Assembly: GCF_002205675.1 (NCBI RefSeq)
Contig: NZ_NISK01000002.1
Span: 558,001-622,000, forward strand
DNA length: 64,000 nt
Reading direction: 5' to 3'
Source of the DNA: Sphingopyxis bauzanensis
GTDB taxonomy: Bacteria > Pseudomonadota > Alphaproteobacteria > Sphingomonadales > Sphingomonadaceae
Positions within the stretch are counted from its first letter, which is position 1, and every line of letters starts with the position of its first letter. This document shows, one piece after another, positions 13,788 to 19,201 of this stretch. The notes beneath the pieces were generated by a model. It searched no databases and was not told the origin of the DNA. It saw only the letters and a program-made list of their open reading frames with translations. Made by a program: the position numbers and the translations under genes.

Positions 13788-16289
13788 GTGCTCCCCCTCG
13801 CCTCCCTCTGGCGGATCGCGCGCCGTGACCTTGCGACGCGCATCCGCGGGTTGCGGCTACTCGCCGTCTGCCTTTTCCTCGGCGTCGCGACGCTCGCAGC
13901 GATCGGCAGCCTGACGCGCGGCATCACCTCCGAACTCGAGGTGCGCGGGCAGACGATCCTGGGCGGCGATATCGAATTCGGCATTCCGCAGCGTGAGGCG
14001 ACCGCCGAAGAAATCGCGGCATTCCGCAAAGCAGGAGCGACATCGTCAACCGTGCGGATGCGCGCGATGGCCAACGCGCCCGAAGGCGACGCGCTATTGT
14101 CCGAACTCAAGGCAGTCGATGGAGCCTATCCGCTCTATGGCGCGCTGCGGCTGGAAAGCGGCGCGCGCCGCGGCCCCCCGCCCGCGGGCAGCATCTGGAT
14201 CGGCAAGGATCTCGCGTCGCGGCTCGACCTGAACGTCGGCGAACGGGTGAAGTTTGGCGAAAAACCGTTCCTGATCGACGGCGTCATCGCCGAGGAGCCC
14301 GACCGGCTGGGCGAAGGTTTCACCCTTGGCCCTGTCGCGATCATCGGTATCGCCGACCTGCCCGCGACCCAGCTGATCCAGCCGGGCAGCCTTTTCGAAA
14401 GCAAATATCGCGTCCGCCTGCCCGACAGCTCCAACCCCGAAGCGGTCGGCGAGGCGCTGACCGCCGAATTCCCCGGCGCGGGCTGGGACATCACCGACCG
14501 CAGCAACGGCGCGCCAGGAACGCGGCGCTTTATCGAGCGCATGGGCCAGTTCCTGTCGCTTGTCGGCCTTGCCGCCTTGGTCATCGCCGGGATCGGCGTC
14601 GGCAATGGCGTCGCGAGCTATCTGGCGGGGAAACGTCCGGGTCTGGCGACGCTGAAAGTTCTCGGCGCCGACAGCGCGACGGTGCTCCGCATCTTTGGCT
14701 TGCAGATACTGGCGGTAGCCGGGGTGTCGATCGTCGCAGGCCTGGTCGTCGGCGCGCTGGCGCCGATCGCAATCGGCGCGATTGCCGGCGACGTACTGCC
14801 CGTCCGCCCCGGCTTCGCGCTCTATCCACTCCCGCTCGCAGTCAGCGCCGCTTATGGGCTGCTGATCGCCATCGCCTTTGCCATGCCGCCGCTCGCCGCC
14901 ACGAAGCATATTCCGGCGGCGGGGCTCTATCGCGCCACCGTCGACAAGGCGGCGCGGATCGACCGCCCCGCGCTGATTGCCGTGGCGGTCGCACTGATCG
15001 CGATCGTTGCGCTGGCGGTCGGCACCGCGCGCGAGCCTTTGTTTGCACTCGGCTTTATCGGTGCCGCGATCGGTCTGCTGTTGATCCTCGTCGGGCTCGG
15101 CTGGCTGGTGCGCCGCATTGCGAGCCGCCTGCCCCGCCCGCGCCGGCCACTGCTGCGCCTCGCGCTGGCCAACCTGCACCGACCCGGCGCCTCGACCGGC
15201 GCGCTGGTTGTGGCGCTGGGGCTCGGGCTGACCCTGTTCGTGACGCTTGCTGCGATCCAGACAAGCATCACCAACGAGATCGCGCGCACCGTGCCGCAGC
15301 GCGCGCCGAGCTTTTTCGTGCTCGACGTGCCGCGCGACGGCGCCGCGCAATTTCGCGATCTCGTCGCCAAGGCCGCCCCCGACGCGCAGATCAACATGAT
15401 CCCGGCGCTGCGCGGCAGCGTCACCGAATTTCGCGGCCAGCGCGTCGACGAACTCGCCGAACTTCCCGAAGGCGCGTGGGTGCTGCGCGGCGACCGCGGG
15501 CTGACGTACAGCGCGGTACCGCCGAATGGCAGCGAACTGGTGGGCGGCCAATGGTGGGCCGCGGATTACAAGGGACCGCCACTGGTCAGCGTCGAAGAGG
15601 AGGTTGCGACTTCGCTGGGCCTCAAGATCGGCGACACGCTCAGCGTCAATGTGCTGGGGGTCGAGGTGCAGGCCAGGGTCGCATCCTTTCGCACCGTGCA
15701 GTGGGATAATTTCGGGCTGAATTATGTGCTCGTGTTTTCGCCCGGCGCGTTCGACGCGGCGCCGCACAATATGGTCGCGACCGTCGCCGTTGATCCCAAA
15801 GCCGAAGCCGAGCTGGCGCGCAGCATCCCGCGCACCTTCCCCTCCGCCTCGCTAATCGCGGTACGTGACGTCGTGTCGCAGGTGACGACCTTGCTCACCC
15901 AGATGAGCCAGGCGATCGCGGCGGCGGCGAGCATTGCGATCCTGGCCGGAATCGCCGTCCTGATCGGCGCGATTGCCGCCAGCCGCGAGCGACGCGTGTA
16001 CGACAGCGTGATCCTGAAACTGCTCGGCGCGACGCGGCGCCAGATATTGGGCGCGCAGGCGATGGAATATGCGGTGCTGGCGGCGGTGCTGGCGGTGCTC
16101 GCGCTCGGACTCGGCCTGATCGCAGCGCGCTATGTCGTGGTCAGCCTGTTCGAATTCACCTTCGCCCCCGATCCGCTGATTGTCGGCGCGACGCTGATCG
16201 GCGGGGCGGGATTGTCGTTCCTGATCGGTATCGCGGGCAGCTGGCCGTTGTTGTCGGCGAAACCGGCGCAGGCTTTGCGGAGTCTTTGA
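13788..16289 (+). CDS. FtsX-like ABC transporter permease (YbbP-like)
   Basis: An 833-residue permease starting at a GTG that directly abuts the ATPase stop, so translation is coupled. There is one N-terminal membrane segment, a large periplasmic domain, a central cluster of membrane helices, a second soluble region and four C-terminal helices. This is the double FtsX (MacB-type) layout of YbbP. It does not pump by the usual route; relatives transmit force to the periplasm or extract lipids from the inner membrane. It partners with the upstream ATPase and possibly the divergent arylesterase. Confidence 0.92.
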   Translation: MLPLASLWRIARRDLATRIRGLRLLAVCLFLGVATLAAIGSLTRGITSELEVRGQTILGGDIEFGIPQREATAEEIAAFRKAGATSSTVRMRAMANAPEGDALLSELKAVDGAYPLYGALRLESGARRGPPPAGSIWIGKDLASRLDLNVGERVKFGEKPFLIDGVIAEEPDRLGEGFTLGPVAIIGIADLPATQLIQPGSLFESKYRVRLPDSSNPEAVGEALTAEFPGAGWDITDRSNGAPGTRRFIERMGQFLSLVGLAALVIAGIGVGNGVASYLAGKRPGLATLKVLGADSATVLRIFGLQILAVAGVSIVAGLVVGALAPIAIGAIAGDVLPVRPGFALYPLPLAVSAAYGLLIAIAFAMPPLAATKHIPAAGLYRATVDKAARIDRPALIAVAVALIAIVALAVGTAREPLFALGFIGAAIGLLLILVGLGWLVRRIASRLPRPRRPLLRLALANLHRPGASTGALVVALGLGLTLFVTLAAIQTSITNEIARTVPQRAPSFFVLDVPRDGAAQFRDLVAKAAPDAQINMIPALRGSVTEFRGQRVDELAELPEGAWVLRGDRGLTYSAVPPNGSELVGGQWWAADYKGPPLVSVEEEVATSLGLKIGDTLSVNVLGVEVQARVASFRTVQWDNFGLNYVLVFSPGAFDAAPHNMVATVAVDPKAEAELARSIPRTFPSASLIAVRDVVSQVTTLLTQMSQAIAAAASIAILAGIAVLIGAIAASRERRVYDSVILKLLGATRRQILGAQAMEYAVLAAVLAVLALGLGLIAARYVVVSLFEFTFAPDPLIVGATLIGGAGLSFLIGIAGSWPLLSAKPAQALRSL

Positions 16290-16293
16290 CCGG

Positions 16294-16659
16294 TCAGCCG
16301 TCGGAAGCGAGGCCCAGCCGTGTGGCTTGAGCCGCCAATCGTTTGTCAAGCGTCCACAATGATGCGTCCGGCAGGCGGGTGACGGACGCGAGCAGATGTG
16401 CATCGACCATGCCAAGCCCAGTGCCGTGCAGTCGATGTTCAGTCACGAAAGATAGCAATTCACGCTGCGTAACGACCGGAGCCGCGGGAAGCAGCCCGAG
16501 CATCGACACGAATTTTTCCCGCTCCTCGAGCGACCCCAGCGCCAGTTCTACCGTGACGAATTGATGCTGGACAACGCCGTCCTCCGACAAGGCCAACACC
16601 AACGCAGAATTCGCACGGCGCAAATGATCGATCCAGACCGATGTATCGACAAGGATCAT
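16294..16659 (-). CDS. vapC: VapC-type PIN-domain toxin
   Basis: A 121-residue PIN-domain ribonuclease. The start ILVDTSVWIDHLR and the acidic metal-binding residues Asp5, Glu38, Asp86 and probably Asp105 are in their usual places. Members cut tRNA or rRNA when freed from the antitoxin. Its ATG overlaps the antitoxin stop by 4 nt (ATGA), so the two are translationally coupled. Its stop is only 4 nt from the end of the convergent permease gene. Confidence 0.92.
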   Translation of the reverse strand: MILVDTSVWIDHLRRANSALVLALSEDGVVQHQFVTVELALGSLEEREKFVSMLGLLPAAPVVTQRELLSFVTEHRLHGTGLGMVDAHLLASVTRLPDASLWTLDKRLAAQATRLGLASDG

Positions 16660-17105
16660 TCAAAAGGCCGTTCACGCGGGGCTGAGACAGCATCGGACAT
16701 GGTTCCGCCCATTAACGCCAACGACCGAGCAGCCTCGCGCTGGACAAGCGCCATCAGAGCCGCCCGCTCCAACTCTTTGCGATCCTTGATCCCACTGATC
16801 CGTTCGGCTTGCGCCCACAGTTCGTCGTCCGCAACGATCCCTGGGCCGCGACCCGCTGTCTTTGAACGCTCGAATCGAACATGTCCGCGACGCTGATCGA
16901 TTTCACGTGTTTCCCAACCCGCCTCGACCCACACAGCGGCCTGACTATGGTTGCCGCCGACATGGTTGGACCACCAAGCGCGGTGGCTATGAGCGCTCGG
17001 TGGCAGCGGAAAACCCAAAATCTCTTCAATCTCGGTGAAATTTGCGTTCCAGCTGGTGTCGGAAAGCGAACGCAGATGATCGCCGAGAGGATCATATTTT
17101 CCCAT
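16656..17105 (-). CDS. Antitoxin: DUF7662-like domain fused to VapB-type C-terminus
   Basis: A 149-residue protein with two parts. Residues 1-80 (GKYDPLGDHL, FTEIEEILGFPLPPSA, HRAWWSN, HSQAAVWVEAGW) look like the DUF7662 domain, usually a stand-alone small protein or part of other proteins. Residues 88-149 (ADDELWAQAERISGIKDRKELERAAL) have the ribbon-helix-helix shape and spacing of VapB antitoxins, followed by a tail that should wrap the PIN toxin. The direct overlap with vapC supports the antitoxin role. Ordinary VapB proteins are 60-80 residues, so the front domain is an addition. The domain name is from memory. Confidence 0.78.
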   Translation of the reverse strand: MGKYDPLGDHLRSLSDTSWNANFTEIEEILGFPLPPSAHSHRAWWSNHVGGNHSQAAVWVEAGWETREIDQRRGHVRFERSKTAGRGPGIVADDELWAQAERISGIKDRKELERAALMALVQREAARSLALMGGTMSDAVSAPRERPFE

Positions 17106-17111
17106 GACATG

Positions 17112-17131
17112 ATTCCTTTCCTACAAGGAAT
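17112..17131. promoter_or_regulatory. Palindrome over the antitoxin ribosome binding site
   Basis: Perfect arms ATTCCTT and AAGGAAT enclose a 6-nt centre. On the minus strand the repeat includes AGGAAAGGA, the ribosome binding site of the antitoxin gene. It is a candidate operator for self-repression by the toxin-antitoxin complex, or an mRNA hairpin. The following 50 nt are clearly AT-richer than the surroundings and probably hold the promoter. Confidence 0.5.
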
Positions 17132-17181
17132 AGGTACTGAATAGTTTTCATCATGCCAATATAGTATTTTTCATCTTCTTC

Positions 17182-17940
17182 CTAAATCAGTCTCGCCACC
17201 GCCGCCACCGCAGCGACGCCCAGCACGACCGCGACCATCGCCTGCCATACATGCGGTGCGACGCGGCCGAAGTGGCGTCCGCCGACATAATTGCCGATCC
17301 ACATCGGCGCGAAGAGCAGCAGCGACAGGATCAGCAACCGCCAGGTGGCGATCCCGACCCAGAGCGCCGCCAGCGTCCCGGCGATCGCCGTGGCGAAAAA
17401 GATCAGCATCATCGACGCCCGCGAGGTCTTGGGCGGCAACGCGCTGCGCAGATAGAAGGGGACGACCGGCGGGCCGGGCATCGCCGCAAAGCCGGTCAGG
17501 ATTCCCGACACCACGCCGGTGCCACCAATCGCCAGCCGGCCCGGCCGATGTCCCTCGGGCTGTTTAGGCAGCAGCACCGCGACGAAGGCGCCGACCGCGA
17601 CCAGCGTGATCAGCAGCCGCGCCACGTCGGGCGTCGTCGCATCGAGCGCGATCATGCCGAGCGGCGTTGTCGCCATCGCGACCAGCGCGATCGGTACGGC
17701 GGTCGAGCGATCGGCATCGGCGAGGATCACCTTCATCCCCACTGGCCCGATCAGCAGTTGCAACAAAATGCCGAGCACCACCGCCTCGCCCGGGGTGATG
17801 ATCAAGCCTAGAAGCGGCACAAGGATGATCGCCATCCCGAACCCGGTGAGCCCACGCACATAGGCCGCGCCAAAGGTCATCGCCGCGGCACCGGCAAGGG
17901 TGAGCGGGGCAAGACCGACAAGCTGGGCGAGACTGGTCAT
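17182..17940 (-). CDS. TauE/SafE family sulfite/organosulfonate exporter-like permease
   Basis: A 252-residue protein with about eight transmembrane helices in two similar halves. The first half has FGAAYVRGLTGFGMAI and the second GFAAMPGPPVVPFYL; these Gly/Pro-rich repeats mark the TauE/SafE family. Members move small anions such as sulfite or sulfoacetate, but most are uncharacterised. The ATG chosen opens the first helix; the upstream open frame is not hydrophobic and is discarded. Confidence 0.88.
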   Translation of the reverse strand: MTSLAQLVGLAPLTLAGAAAMTFGAAYVRGLTGFGMAIILVPLLGLIITPGEAVVLGILLQLLIGPVGMKVILADADRSTAVPIALVAMATTPLGMIALDATTPDVARLLITLVAVGAFVAVLLPKQPEGHRPGRLAIGGTGVVSGILTGFAAMPGPPVVPFYLRSALPPKTSRASMMLIFFATAIAGTLAALWVGIATWRLLILSLLLFAPMWIGNYVGGRHFGRVAPHVWQAMVAVVLGVAAVAAVARLI

Positions 17941-17990
17941 GGCGCAGTGGCCAGCGTGCGAAATTCGTGAGCAATAAGCAGGGGAATCCT

Positions 17991-18015
17991 CCGGGCGCCC
18001 GCAGGGGCGCCCCGG
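17991..18015. repeat. Short GC-rich inverted repeat
   Basis: CCGGGCGCCC and GGGGCGCCCCGG form a hairpin with a GCA loop in the 121-nt gap between the TauE gene and the HExxH protein gene. No T-tract follows, so it is not a typical terminator. It may stabilise or partially end the upstream transcript. Confidence 0.45.
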
Positions 18016-18061
18016 CCGATACTGCAAGAGTGCAGCGGCGCCTAGCCCCTTGCCGCCAAGT

Positions 18062-19201
18062 TCAGGCGAGCGGCCATAGTGCATTCACCGGACGTTCGAG
18101 CACCTGCGCGGCGACCGCATGCAGCCGTCCGGGATCGAAGCGCCCAGCGCGCACCGCGCCCGCCAGCCACGCCTCGATCGACCCACCCGTTTCAATCCAT
18201 CGATCGTGGCGCAGCATGCCGTAGATGGCGCCGGCGAGCACATGGATGCCGTCGTCCGCATTGCGCCAGCGATCGGCGGGATTGCGCGCAACGCCAAGCG
18301 CCTCGCTGATCAATTGATCGAGCGCCTGCGCAATATCCTCGTTGAGCAGCCCTTCGAGCGTGGTGTACCCCCATTTCGGGTCATGGTCCGCCACGACGCG
18401 CGGGATCAGTGGATCCTGCGCCAGCACCGCGAGCGCCGCCTGCGCCGCGGAACCGTCCATCGGTACCGGCGGGTGCAGCATTTCGTGAGCGGCATTGCGC
18501 ACGGTGATCGGGGTGTTCCAGTCGGCGGCCTGAAGGAAGGTCTGGCCCTGGACCTTGATCCCGTGCGGTTTGCAAAATTGCAGCAACACCACCTCGATCA
18601 GCGGATCGAAAACCCGACCGGTCAGCTTTTCGTGCAGTCGAATGACATCATAATCGGCGAGATCGCGATCGAGCTCGGCGATCCGCCGCGTGACAGCGCC
18701 CGCGCGCTCGTCGCGGAAGGCTGCAAAACCCGCCGCCTGCATCGCTTCGAACAGCGCCTTGAGCCGAGGCGCGACGCCCACAAACCAGCGCCAGTCGTTC
18801 TCGTTCCAATAGGGGCTGGCCCGATAAGCCCGAAACAGCCGCGCGTCGGGGGCCGCGACGCTGGCGATCAAGGTGGGCAGATCGGCGTCGCTGCCGTTGG
18901 AGAACAGCACTGACAAATTCGGTCCGAGCAGGCCAAAGCCGCTGCGCTCGGCCTCTTTCGACAAAGCGGGAATATCCGATCGGACGGCGGCGGCAAGACG
19001 CGGCGCAAAGGCGTTGGCGTCAGCCTCGTAATAGGGGAGATAGAGCTCACCGCCCGCGAGCGGACCGAGGAAGGCCAGCGCGTCGAACCCTTCGGATGCA
19101 CGAACTTTCCAGCGCGTGCGCATTGGCGGGCGCTGCGCGTGCGCGAGGGTGGGAATAGCGAGGCTGCCGAGCGATGCGGCAAGGAAGAGACGGCGATCCA
19201 T
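18062..19201 (-). CDS. Exported protein with HExxH motif, putative zinc metallopeptidase
   Basis: A 379-residue protein with an RR-containing signal peptide (MDRRLFLAASLGSL, cleavage near AHA-QRP), so it is probably periplasmic and possibly a Tat substrate. Residues 239-243 read HEMLH, the zinc-peptidase motif, set in an alpha-helical context (ITVRNAAHEMLHPPVP). A following glutamate-rich helix (EGLLNEDIAQ) could give the third ligand. I do not recognise the family. It precedes the TauE gene on the same strand; a link is not evident. Confidence 0.65.
   Translation of the reverse strand: MDRRLFLAASLGSLAIPTLAHAQRPPMRTRWKVRASEGFDALAFLGPLAGGELYLPYYEADANAFAPRLAAAVRSDIPALSKEAERSGFGLLGPNLSVLFSNGSDADLPTLIASVAAPDARLFRAYRASPYWNENDWRWFVGVAPRLKALFEAMQAAGFAAFRDERAGAVTRRIAELDRDLADYDVIRLHEKLTGRVFDPLIEVVLLQFCKPHGIKVQGQTFLQAADWNTPITVRNAAHEMLHPPVPMDGSAAQAALAVLAQDPLIPRVVADHDPKWGYTTLEGLLNEDIAQALDQLISEALGVARNPADRWRNADDGIHVLAGAIYGMLRHDRWIETGGSIEAWLAGAVRAGRFDPGRLHAVAAQVLERPVNALWPLA

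Follow-up and report, generated by a model that had tools for sequence, protein, structure and literature searches.

The window, the whole 64,000-nucleotide stretch of DNA that was analysed, carries a two-gene module that is most likely a type II toxin–antitoxin system of the VapBC kind, proposed on sequence grounds as an antitoxin–toxin pair, and whose antitoxin has probably exchanged its DNA-binding part for a DUF7662 domain that it uses in autoregulation. The fusion is confirmed as an observation. A single gene encodes a DUF7662-like front followed by a VapB-type tail, as described in an earlier note on this DNA, and each half scored above its Pfam cut-off. The features of the module are collected in Table 1.

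Table 1. Features of the toxin–antitoxin module and its surroundings, in window coordinates
Feature	Position	Strand	Basis
vapC, PIN-domain toxin, 121 aa	16294..16659	-	Pfam PIN match
ATGA overlap, antitoxin TGA / vapC ATG	16656..16659	-	sequence
Antitoxin gene, DUF7662–VapB fusion, 149 aa	16656..17105	-	single open frame, ATG start
DUF7662 domain, residues 4-79	16869..17096	-	Pfam, AlphaFold2 and structural comparison
Linker, residues 80-92	16830..16868	-	position of the ribbon strand in ordinary VapB
VapB-type helices with toxin-binding tail, residues 93-149	16659..16829	-	Pfam match 93-128
Predicted operator half-site AAAACTATTCA, score 12.2	17138..17148	-	matrix; contains the window's only exact AACTATT
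Predicted operator half-site AATACTATATT, score 8.6	17158..17168	-	matrix; 20 nt from AAAACTATTCA, touches putative -35
Predicted operator half-site GTACCTATTCC, score 8.6	17127..17137	-	matrix; 11 nt from AAAACTATTCA, over putative -10
Putative core promoter TTGGCA, 17 nt, TACCTA	17131..17159	-	by eye; relatives have TTGAC there
Interval from a convergent FtsX-like permease gene to a TauE gene, holds the module	16290..17181	.	Pfam and same-genus loci

When the whole antitoxin was scanned against Pfam, it matched PF24698 (DUF7662) at residues 4–79 (E = 1.7e-12, 47.4 bits versus a cut-off of 26) and PF09957 (VapB_antitoxin) at residues 93–128 (E = 3.1e-6, 27.4 bits versus a cut-off of 23.4). 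The two halves scanned singly returned the same families, with 49.7 bits for DUF7662 and 29.7 bits for VapB; the first 80 residues might have matched no family at all, and residues 1–83 searched alone gave one above its cut-off. The antitoxin had no match in NCBIfam, and a PHROGs search returned weak matches only (E = 0.11 and 0.19). The linker between the halves differs in sequence among the fusions, and its predicted confidence (pLDDT) was below 50 at model residues 84–89 (the numbering of the antitoxin model begins at residue 2).

In ribbon–helix–helix (RHH) proteins, the N-terminal ribbon strand is the DNA reader, and the ribbon also forms the dimer. Ordinary VapBs begin with MRTTxxLDDEL or similar, and a ribbon pattern written by hand was present in 24 of 25 ordinary relatives (a set without L137, a broken ordinary vapB that was included in the promoter control described below) versus none of 16 fusions, with the helices and tail aligning well. 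The VapB Pfam match of the window's antitoxin enters the 47-position profile only at position 8, and at the VapB start the model has two helices (92–103 and 108–132 in model numbering) and no strand. DUF7662 thus is not an extra domain placed before a normal VapB, as had been supposed; it replaces the ribbon, and no intact RHH is present behind it. Of the proposed ribbon–helix–helix followed by a toxin-binding tail, the VapB helices and tail stand, while the ribbon is missing and the RHH is incomplete.

The product of vapC matched the PIN family PF01850 (25.4 bits versus a cut-off of 23.6), and its acidic residues D5, E38, D86 and D105 were invariant across 16 aligned toxins, that of the window among them. 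The ATGA overlap of the antitoxin gene with vapC, reported earlier, is present as described, and the same offset (-4) occurs in 15 of the 16 loci L032–L047, with -10 in L036. A vapC-like PIN gene came next after the fusion in all 22 rows considered (L002–L007 and L032–L047); this neighbour test took frames of at least 60 aa starting between 60 nt before and 150 nt after the stop, and its seeds were picked among these same loci, so that diverged toxins may be missed. vapC matches also lay within the loci of two further fusion proteins, L168 and L170.

A total of 20 distinct fusion proteins was collected, the window's and those from same-genus loci included. All were from Sphingomonadales, every one was an unbroken frame, and the fusion beside vapC is conserved; the halves formed one gene in each, and none of the 20 had them as separate genes. 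In a scan of GTDB species genomes we obtained 45 loci, 16 of which (L032–L047) matched along the whole or almost the whole length at 41–95% identity, all 16 with a Sphingomonadales title; because of these 16, the fusion is not a product of chance. The closest named relative was a Sphingopyxis metagenome-assembled genome (L032, 95% identical), and in L043 the VapB tail scored below the cut-off (17.2 versus 23.4 bits). The remaining 29 loci had only the DUF7662 part in common, one of them (L076) cut by a contig end. The full-length fusion occurred in 6 of 298 same-family genomes, the window's included, and the only DUF7662 match in the window's own genome is this antitoxin. Viral contigs gave one match, to an ordinary VapB, and phage records gave two weak DUF7662 matches (E = 8e-4).

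The fold of DUF7662 was modelled with AlphaFold2 from 41 sequences for the whole antitoxin (mean pLDDT 83.9) and 45 for the separate domain (89.9). According to the model, the domain has the order helix, strand, helix, helical segments, helix and two strands, which is that of a winged helix. The best structural rows were Pi (2nra, Z = 5.1), RepE (2z9o, 5.1), RctB (5tbf, 5.0) and CtsR (3h0d, 4.7), all of them DNA-binding winged helices, with 10–14% identity at Z of about 5; just below these came the eukaryotic MAGE (4.3), an rRNA methyltransferase (4.2) and the eukaryotic Stn1 (4.0). Foldseek against the PDB returned nothing with E up to 0.001 (best 0.27), a viral structure library yielded nothing named (best E = 0.045), and a profile search of PDB sequences with 87 positions, essentially the DUF7662 part, reached E = 0.71 at best. 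Weak fold matches can reflect only a common arrangement. Nor is the domain basic, with 9 K/R versus 11 D/E in residues 1–83 by hand count. We regard the modelled resemblance as suggestive only, and a winged-helix DNA-binding domain as the most likely identity of DUF7662 on the model.

Evidence for what the domain may read came from the promoters. The word AACTATT/AATAGTT, first picked by eye from these same fusion upstreams, was present at 15 sites in the 120-nt upstreams of 16 deduplicated fusion genes, 11 of which had at least one. This set, type A, omits L003 and L032 (near L034 and the window) and the duplicates L004–L007 and L103. Dinucleotide shuffles, which ignore the relatedness of the fusions, put the expectation for the word at 0.27 genes, and in 200 of them the commonest 7-mer stood before at most 6 genes. 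CGATCCA, which belongs to a neighbouring gene that loci have in common, was nearly as frequent (10 of 16 fusion upstreams). Relatedness alone is nevertheless insufficient, because exact AACTATT is missing elsewhere in the same loci, neighbouring genes included: 16 fusion loci, with L032 replacing the window, had 15 exact copies in 1,200 upstream nt and not one in their remaining 98,689 nt. Likewise, the word occurs once in the 64-kb window, before the antitoxin gene. It was absent from all 26 ordinary vapB upstreams scored (Fisher p = 1e-6), controls that are less AT-rich (57% versus 50% GC, for the 18 first scored). The control list held 28 loci, of which 18 and then eight more were scored; L021 and L142 were unscored, the start of L131 was reset and that of L027 moved, and L029, L030, L122–L124, L126 and L141 (partial, broken or repeated places) lay outside the list.

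An initial motif fit was discarded after it had moved towards plain AT-richness, and the matrix used here comes from a hard-assignment fit with an AT-rich background. With this matrix, 13 of the 16 fusion upstreams had at least one site and 11 had at least two; the leave-one-out matrix found sites in 13 and two or more in 8, compared with means of 3.3 and 0.26 upstreams, respectively, in shuffles that kept the local composition. Among the other 75-nt windows of the fusion loci (15 of these 16 loci were in the matrix fit), 12 of 1,313 had one site and none had two or more, and elsewhere in the 64-kb window we found seven scattered, unpaired sites with scores of 6.1–7.0. L168, which was outside the fit, had three sites (12.5, 13.1 and 10.7), and L170 had two weak ones (8.2 and 6.7). 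No matrix site was found upstream in L044, L046 and L047; near the usual location of AACTATT, perfect 12-nt palindromes, GATACATGTATC and GGTATATATACC, were seen by eye in L046 and L047. Sites tended to be spaced by multiples of about 11 nt, with gaps gathering around 11 and 22 nt (Rayleigh p of about 4e-4, R = 0.72, n = 15; p = 4e-4 to 2e-3 for periods of 10 to 12), as if the presumed readers lay on one face of the helix. A search of the window's own genome for second targets with the two-site pattern, which does not describe the window's own operator, found none and is uninformative for that reason. A consensus promoter scan of 16200–17300 found none either, nor did a search for RNA families over 15000–19000. 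In seven loci (L035, L036, L037, L039, L041, L042 and L045) a site lay 4–8 nt ahead of TTGAC, which itself was present in 12 of 16 fusion upstreams versus 2 of 26 ordinary vapB upstreams.

We also looked at DUF7662 outside this fusion. In the class, 17 genes from 14 of 385 genomes had the domain above its cut-off; in the phylum, 26 genes from 22 of 398 genomes did. These draws gave 39 unique genes (four shared), of which 18 directly precede a PIN gene, some of the 39 coming from one genus and hence not being independent; among the remaining 21 are short stand-alone versions as well as proteins in which another tail follows. All ten hand-picked toxins of the other pair types, B to E, matched PIN above the cut-off. 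Type B (L053, L078–L080, L082, L087, L095–L097, L100, L102, L105 and L107–L110) has a tail of roughly G..kGt.t...g.Dlt.P. One plasmid homologue of its toxin (L143) is preceded by a prevent-host-death protein with a similar tail, whose Phd match (20 bits) is under the cut-off of 29.8, and another (L144) by a Phd antitoxin above it (32.6 bits). In type C (L052, L089, L090, L093, L098 and L099) the tail contains SRxxIY; distant homologues on plasmids (30% and 38% identity) carry different fronts and the endings SREAIYGERG and SRESIYAGRG (L146 and L147). The two type D members (L061 and L074) end in LIREDRDAR, and a plasmid homologue of the type D toxin (L145) is preceded by a FitA-like RHH protein (63.3 bits) ending in LLREGRDER. 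L101 is a further kind of DUF7662–PIN pair. These tail likenesses were read by eye from printed sequences and are not scored matches; searches of plasmids with two type B tails and one type D tail found no match. DUF7662 appears, from these pairings, to be used as an antitoxin front in several toxin–antitoxin families. The DUF7662 domain tree has 31 of its 68 inner branches open, with bootstrap not settled and 18 label changes over all groups, a resolution too low for counting captures.

Other contexts of the domain were noted as well. In plasmid matches H3, H4, H9, H17–H19 and H21, DUF7662 falls within genes whose annotation is an HNH or GIY-YIG nuclease, and for L056 a GIY-YIG match was weak and below the cut-off. 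No Pfam family other than DUF7662 was present in L026, L057, L063 and L065; L063 (429 aa) joins a DUF7662 front to a long tail without a Pfam family. A class comprising L008, L010, L012, L013, L017, L049, L050, L051 and L054 has a tail of roughly LTIxEAKxGLAxxFGVxxxxIEIxI, for which neither a Pfam name (L049 and L050 scanned) nor an adjoining PIN gene was found; the 5-mer ACTAT lies upstream in seven of the nine. Stand-alone DUF7662 proteins of about 80–90 aa (YDxLRDYL...; L094, L112, L113, L115–L118, L120 and L121) recur in the genus coded g359, with low scores that are above the cut-off.

The other pair types bear on whether the antitoxin itself reads the word. Exact AACTATT was present in 2 of 14 type B upstreams (a set omitting L082 and L095), in none of 6 type C upstreams (omitting L098 and adding L086, which has a type C-like ending and no PIN gene found) and in none of the 3 of types D and E (L061, L074 and L101). 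Single matrix sites in type B (6 of 14) were inside the shuffle range (mean 2.9, most 8), and paired sites (4 of 14) exceeded it (mean 0.31, most 2, in 100 shuffles). Another repeated word, TAAGTA/GTAAGT, was seen in the type C upstreams of L093, L098, L099 and L089, three of which are close relatives. The scarcity of AACTATT in most type B, C and D promoters despite their DUF7662 would fit an alternative in which a host regulator reads the word, or the word is a mere promoter feature, and DUF7662 serves dimerisation or stability, having taken over the dimer-forming role of the ribbon; the sites also adjoin TTGAC, itself enriched before the fusions. We consider this unlikely, since exact AACTATT occurs neither before the 26 ordinary vapB genes nor in 98.7 kb of the fusion loci themselves, and since the type B loci with paired matrix sites share only the DUF7662 front with the fusions.

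The module lies at a variable place in the chromosome. The TauE gene was found in 38 of 40 same-genus genomes, and in 30 of these 38 loci that we compared, the module stood between the TauE and permease genes in 6, the window included, and was absent from this site in 24, where the TauE and permease matches end 6–242 nt apart, the sequence being compared for five of them. The module is therefore accessory at this site. The 242-nt gap of one empty site (L151) contains direct and inverted copies of a ACGAAGACACGAAG-like sequence. Elsewhere, L005 (the same place as L036) has PAD_porph as a neighbouring gene, and CGATCCA is shared by L035–L037, L039, L041, L042 and others; from this shared word and neighbour, many fusion modules may occupy one other chromosomal site.

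An accessory distribution, together with the nuclease-like plasmid genes carrying DUF7662, is what would be expected if the domain were a sensor or guard of a ligand, incoming DNA or a phage factor, with some other protein reading the operator and loss of the target freeing VapC in a defence-like response. We judge this quite improbable. PADLOC matched neither antitoxin nor toxin to any model at E up to 1, a result with which a defence role is still compatible, and the AACTATT repeats combined with the lost ribbon would require another DNA reader. That the join of the two genes is fortuitous or in decay and yields no working antitoxin, a reading for which nothing specific speaks beyond the short VapB match (36 of 47 profile positions), is very hard to reconcile with 20 distinct unbroken fusions, invariant acidic residues in the toxin and the retained overlap with vapC.

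We therefore return to a VapBC module with an exchanged DNA-binding part, for which DNA binding, repression, neutralisation and stoichiometry are what we infer. In this lineage, DUF7662 would read the half-site AACTATT, repeated along the core promoter at intervals of roughly one or two helical turns. The antitoxin dimer might be held by its own helices or by the VapC dimer, so that two or more DUF7662 domains could occupy half-sites across the core promoter, and the antitoxin, alone or with the toxin, would repress its own operon. Inhibition of the PIN-domain RNase would fall to the VapB-type helices and tail, which would bind it; once the antitoxin is degraded, the toxin would be set free and the operon derepressed, as in other type II modules. 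Of the earlier guesses for the front domain (DNA specificity, ligand sensing or guarding of another target), DNA specificity is favoured by the model, the promoter word and the fronts of other antitoxins, and the module, which had been thought to be possibly more than a standard toxin–antitoxin, appears as an autoregulated one with a different DNA reader. A wider proposal, doubtful as it stands, is that DUF7662 is a portable DNA-reading module that has replaced the VapB ribbon, Phd/YefM, FitA-like RHH and other parts in at least four kinds of PIN pair, each with its own promoter word, and that it also equips nuclease-like proteins, so that foreign DNA bearing the word could, in some hosts, titrate the antitoxin and free the toxin.

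These results give a domain of unknown function a likely role that can be tested cheaply by binding to AACTATT repeats. In this antitoxin the DNA-reading part is replaced and the toxin-binding part is kept, and the same front stands before other tails, which makes modular antitoxin evolution directly testable by domain exchange. Annotation would benefit, given the lack of an NCBIfam match for the antitoxin. Literature searches, whose scope excluded subscription papers, preprints and supplements, found no paper on DUF7662/PF24698 or its use in antitoxins, and nothing on Sphingopyxis with vapC and toxin–antitoxin. Both modular antitoxins in general and PIN toxins with a wide range of DNA-binding partners are already known (PMC2701414, PMC4803016, PMC10440598). 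According to Makarova et al. (2009, PMC2701414), the partners of PIN toxins include RHH, AbrB, PHD and MerR-like domains along with further ones that bind DNA; the principle is alike here, and DUF7662 is not named in the portion of that paper used. In the Panacea/NetFlax systems, neutralising elements are joined to exchangeable domains and Panacea itself can neutralise toxins (PMC10440598); both arrangements are modular, whereas here the shared DUF7662 is a predicted DNA reader and the tails vary with the toxin. The order of elements in DUF7662 is like that of the winged helices of the Rep initiators RepE and Pi, of RctB and of CtsR, although no sequence relative was found in the PDB. The closest known system is the ordinary VapBC (PF09957 VapB with PF01850 PIN), to which the module is alike in its helices, tail, kind of PIN toxin, gene order and overlap, and from which it differs in having no N-terminal ribbon, in carrying DUF7662 in its place and in a promoter word missing from 26 ordinary upstreams.
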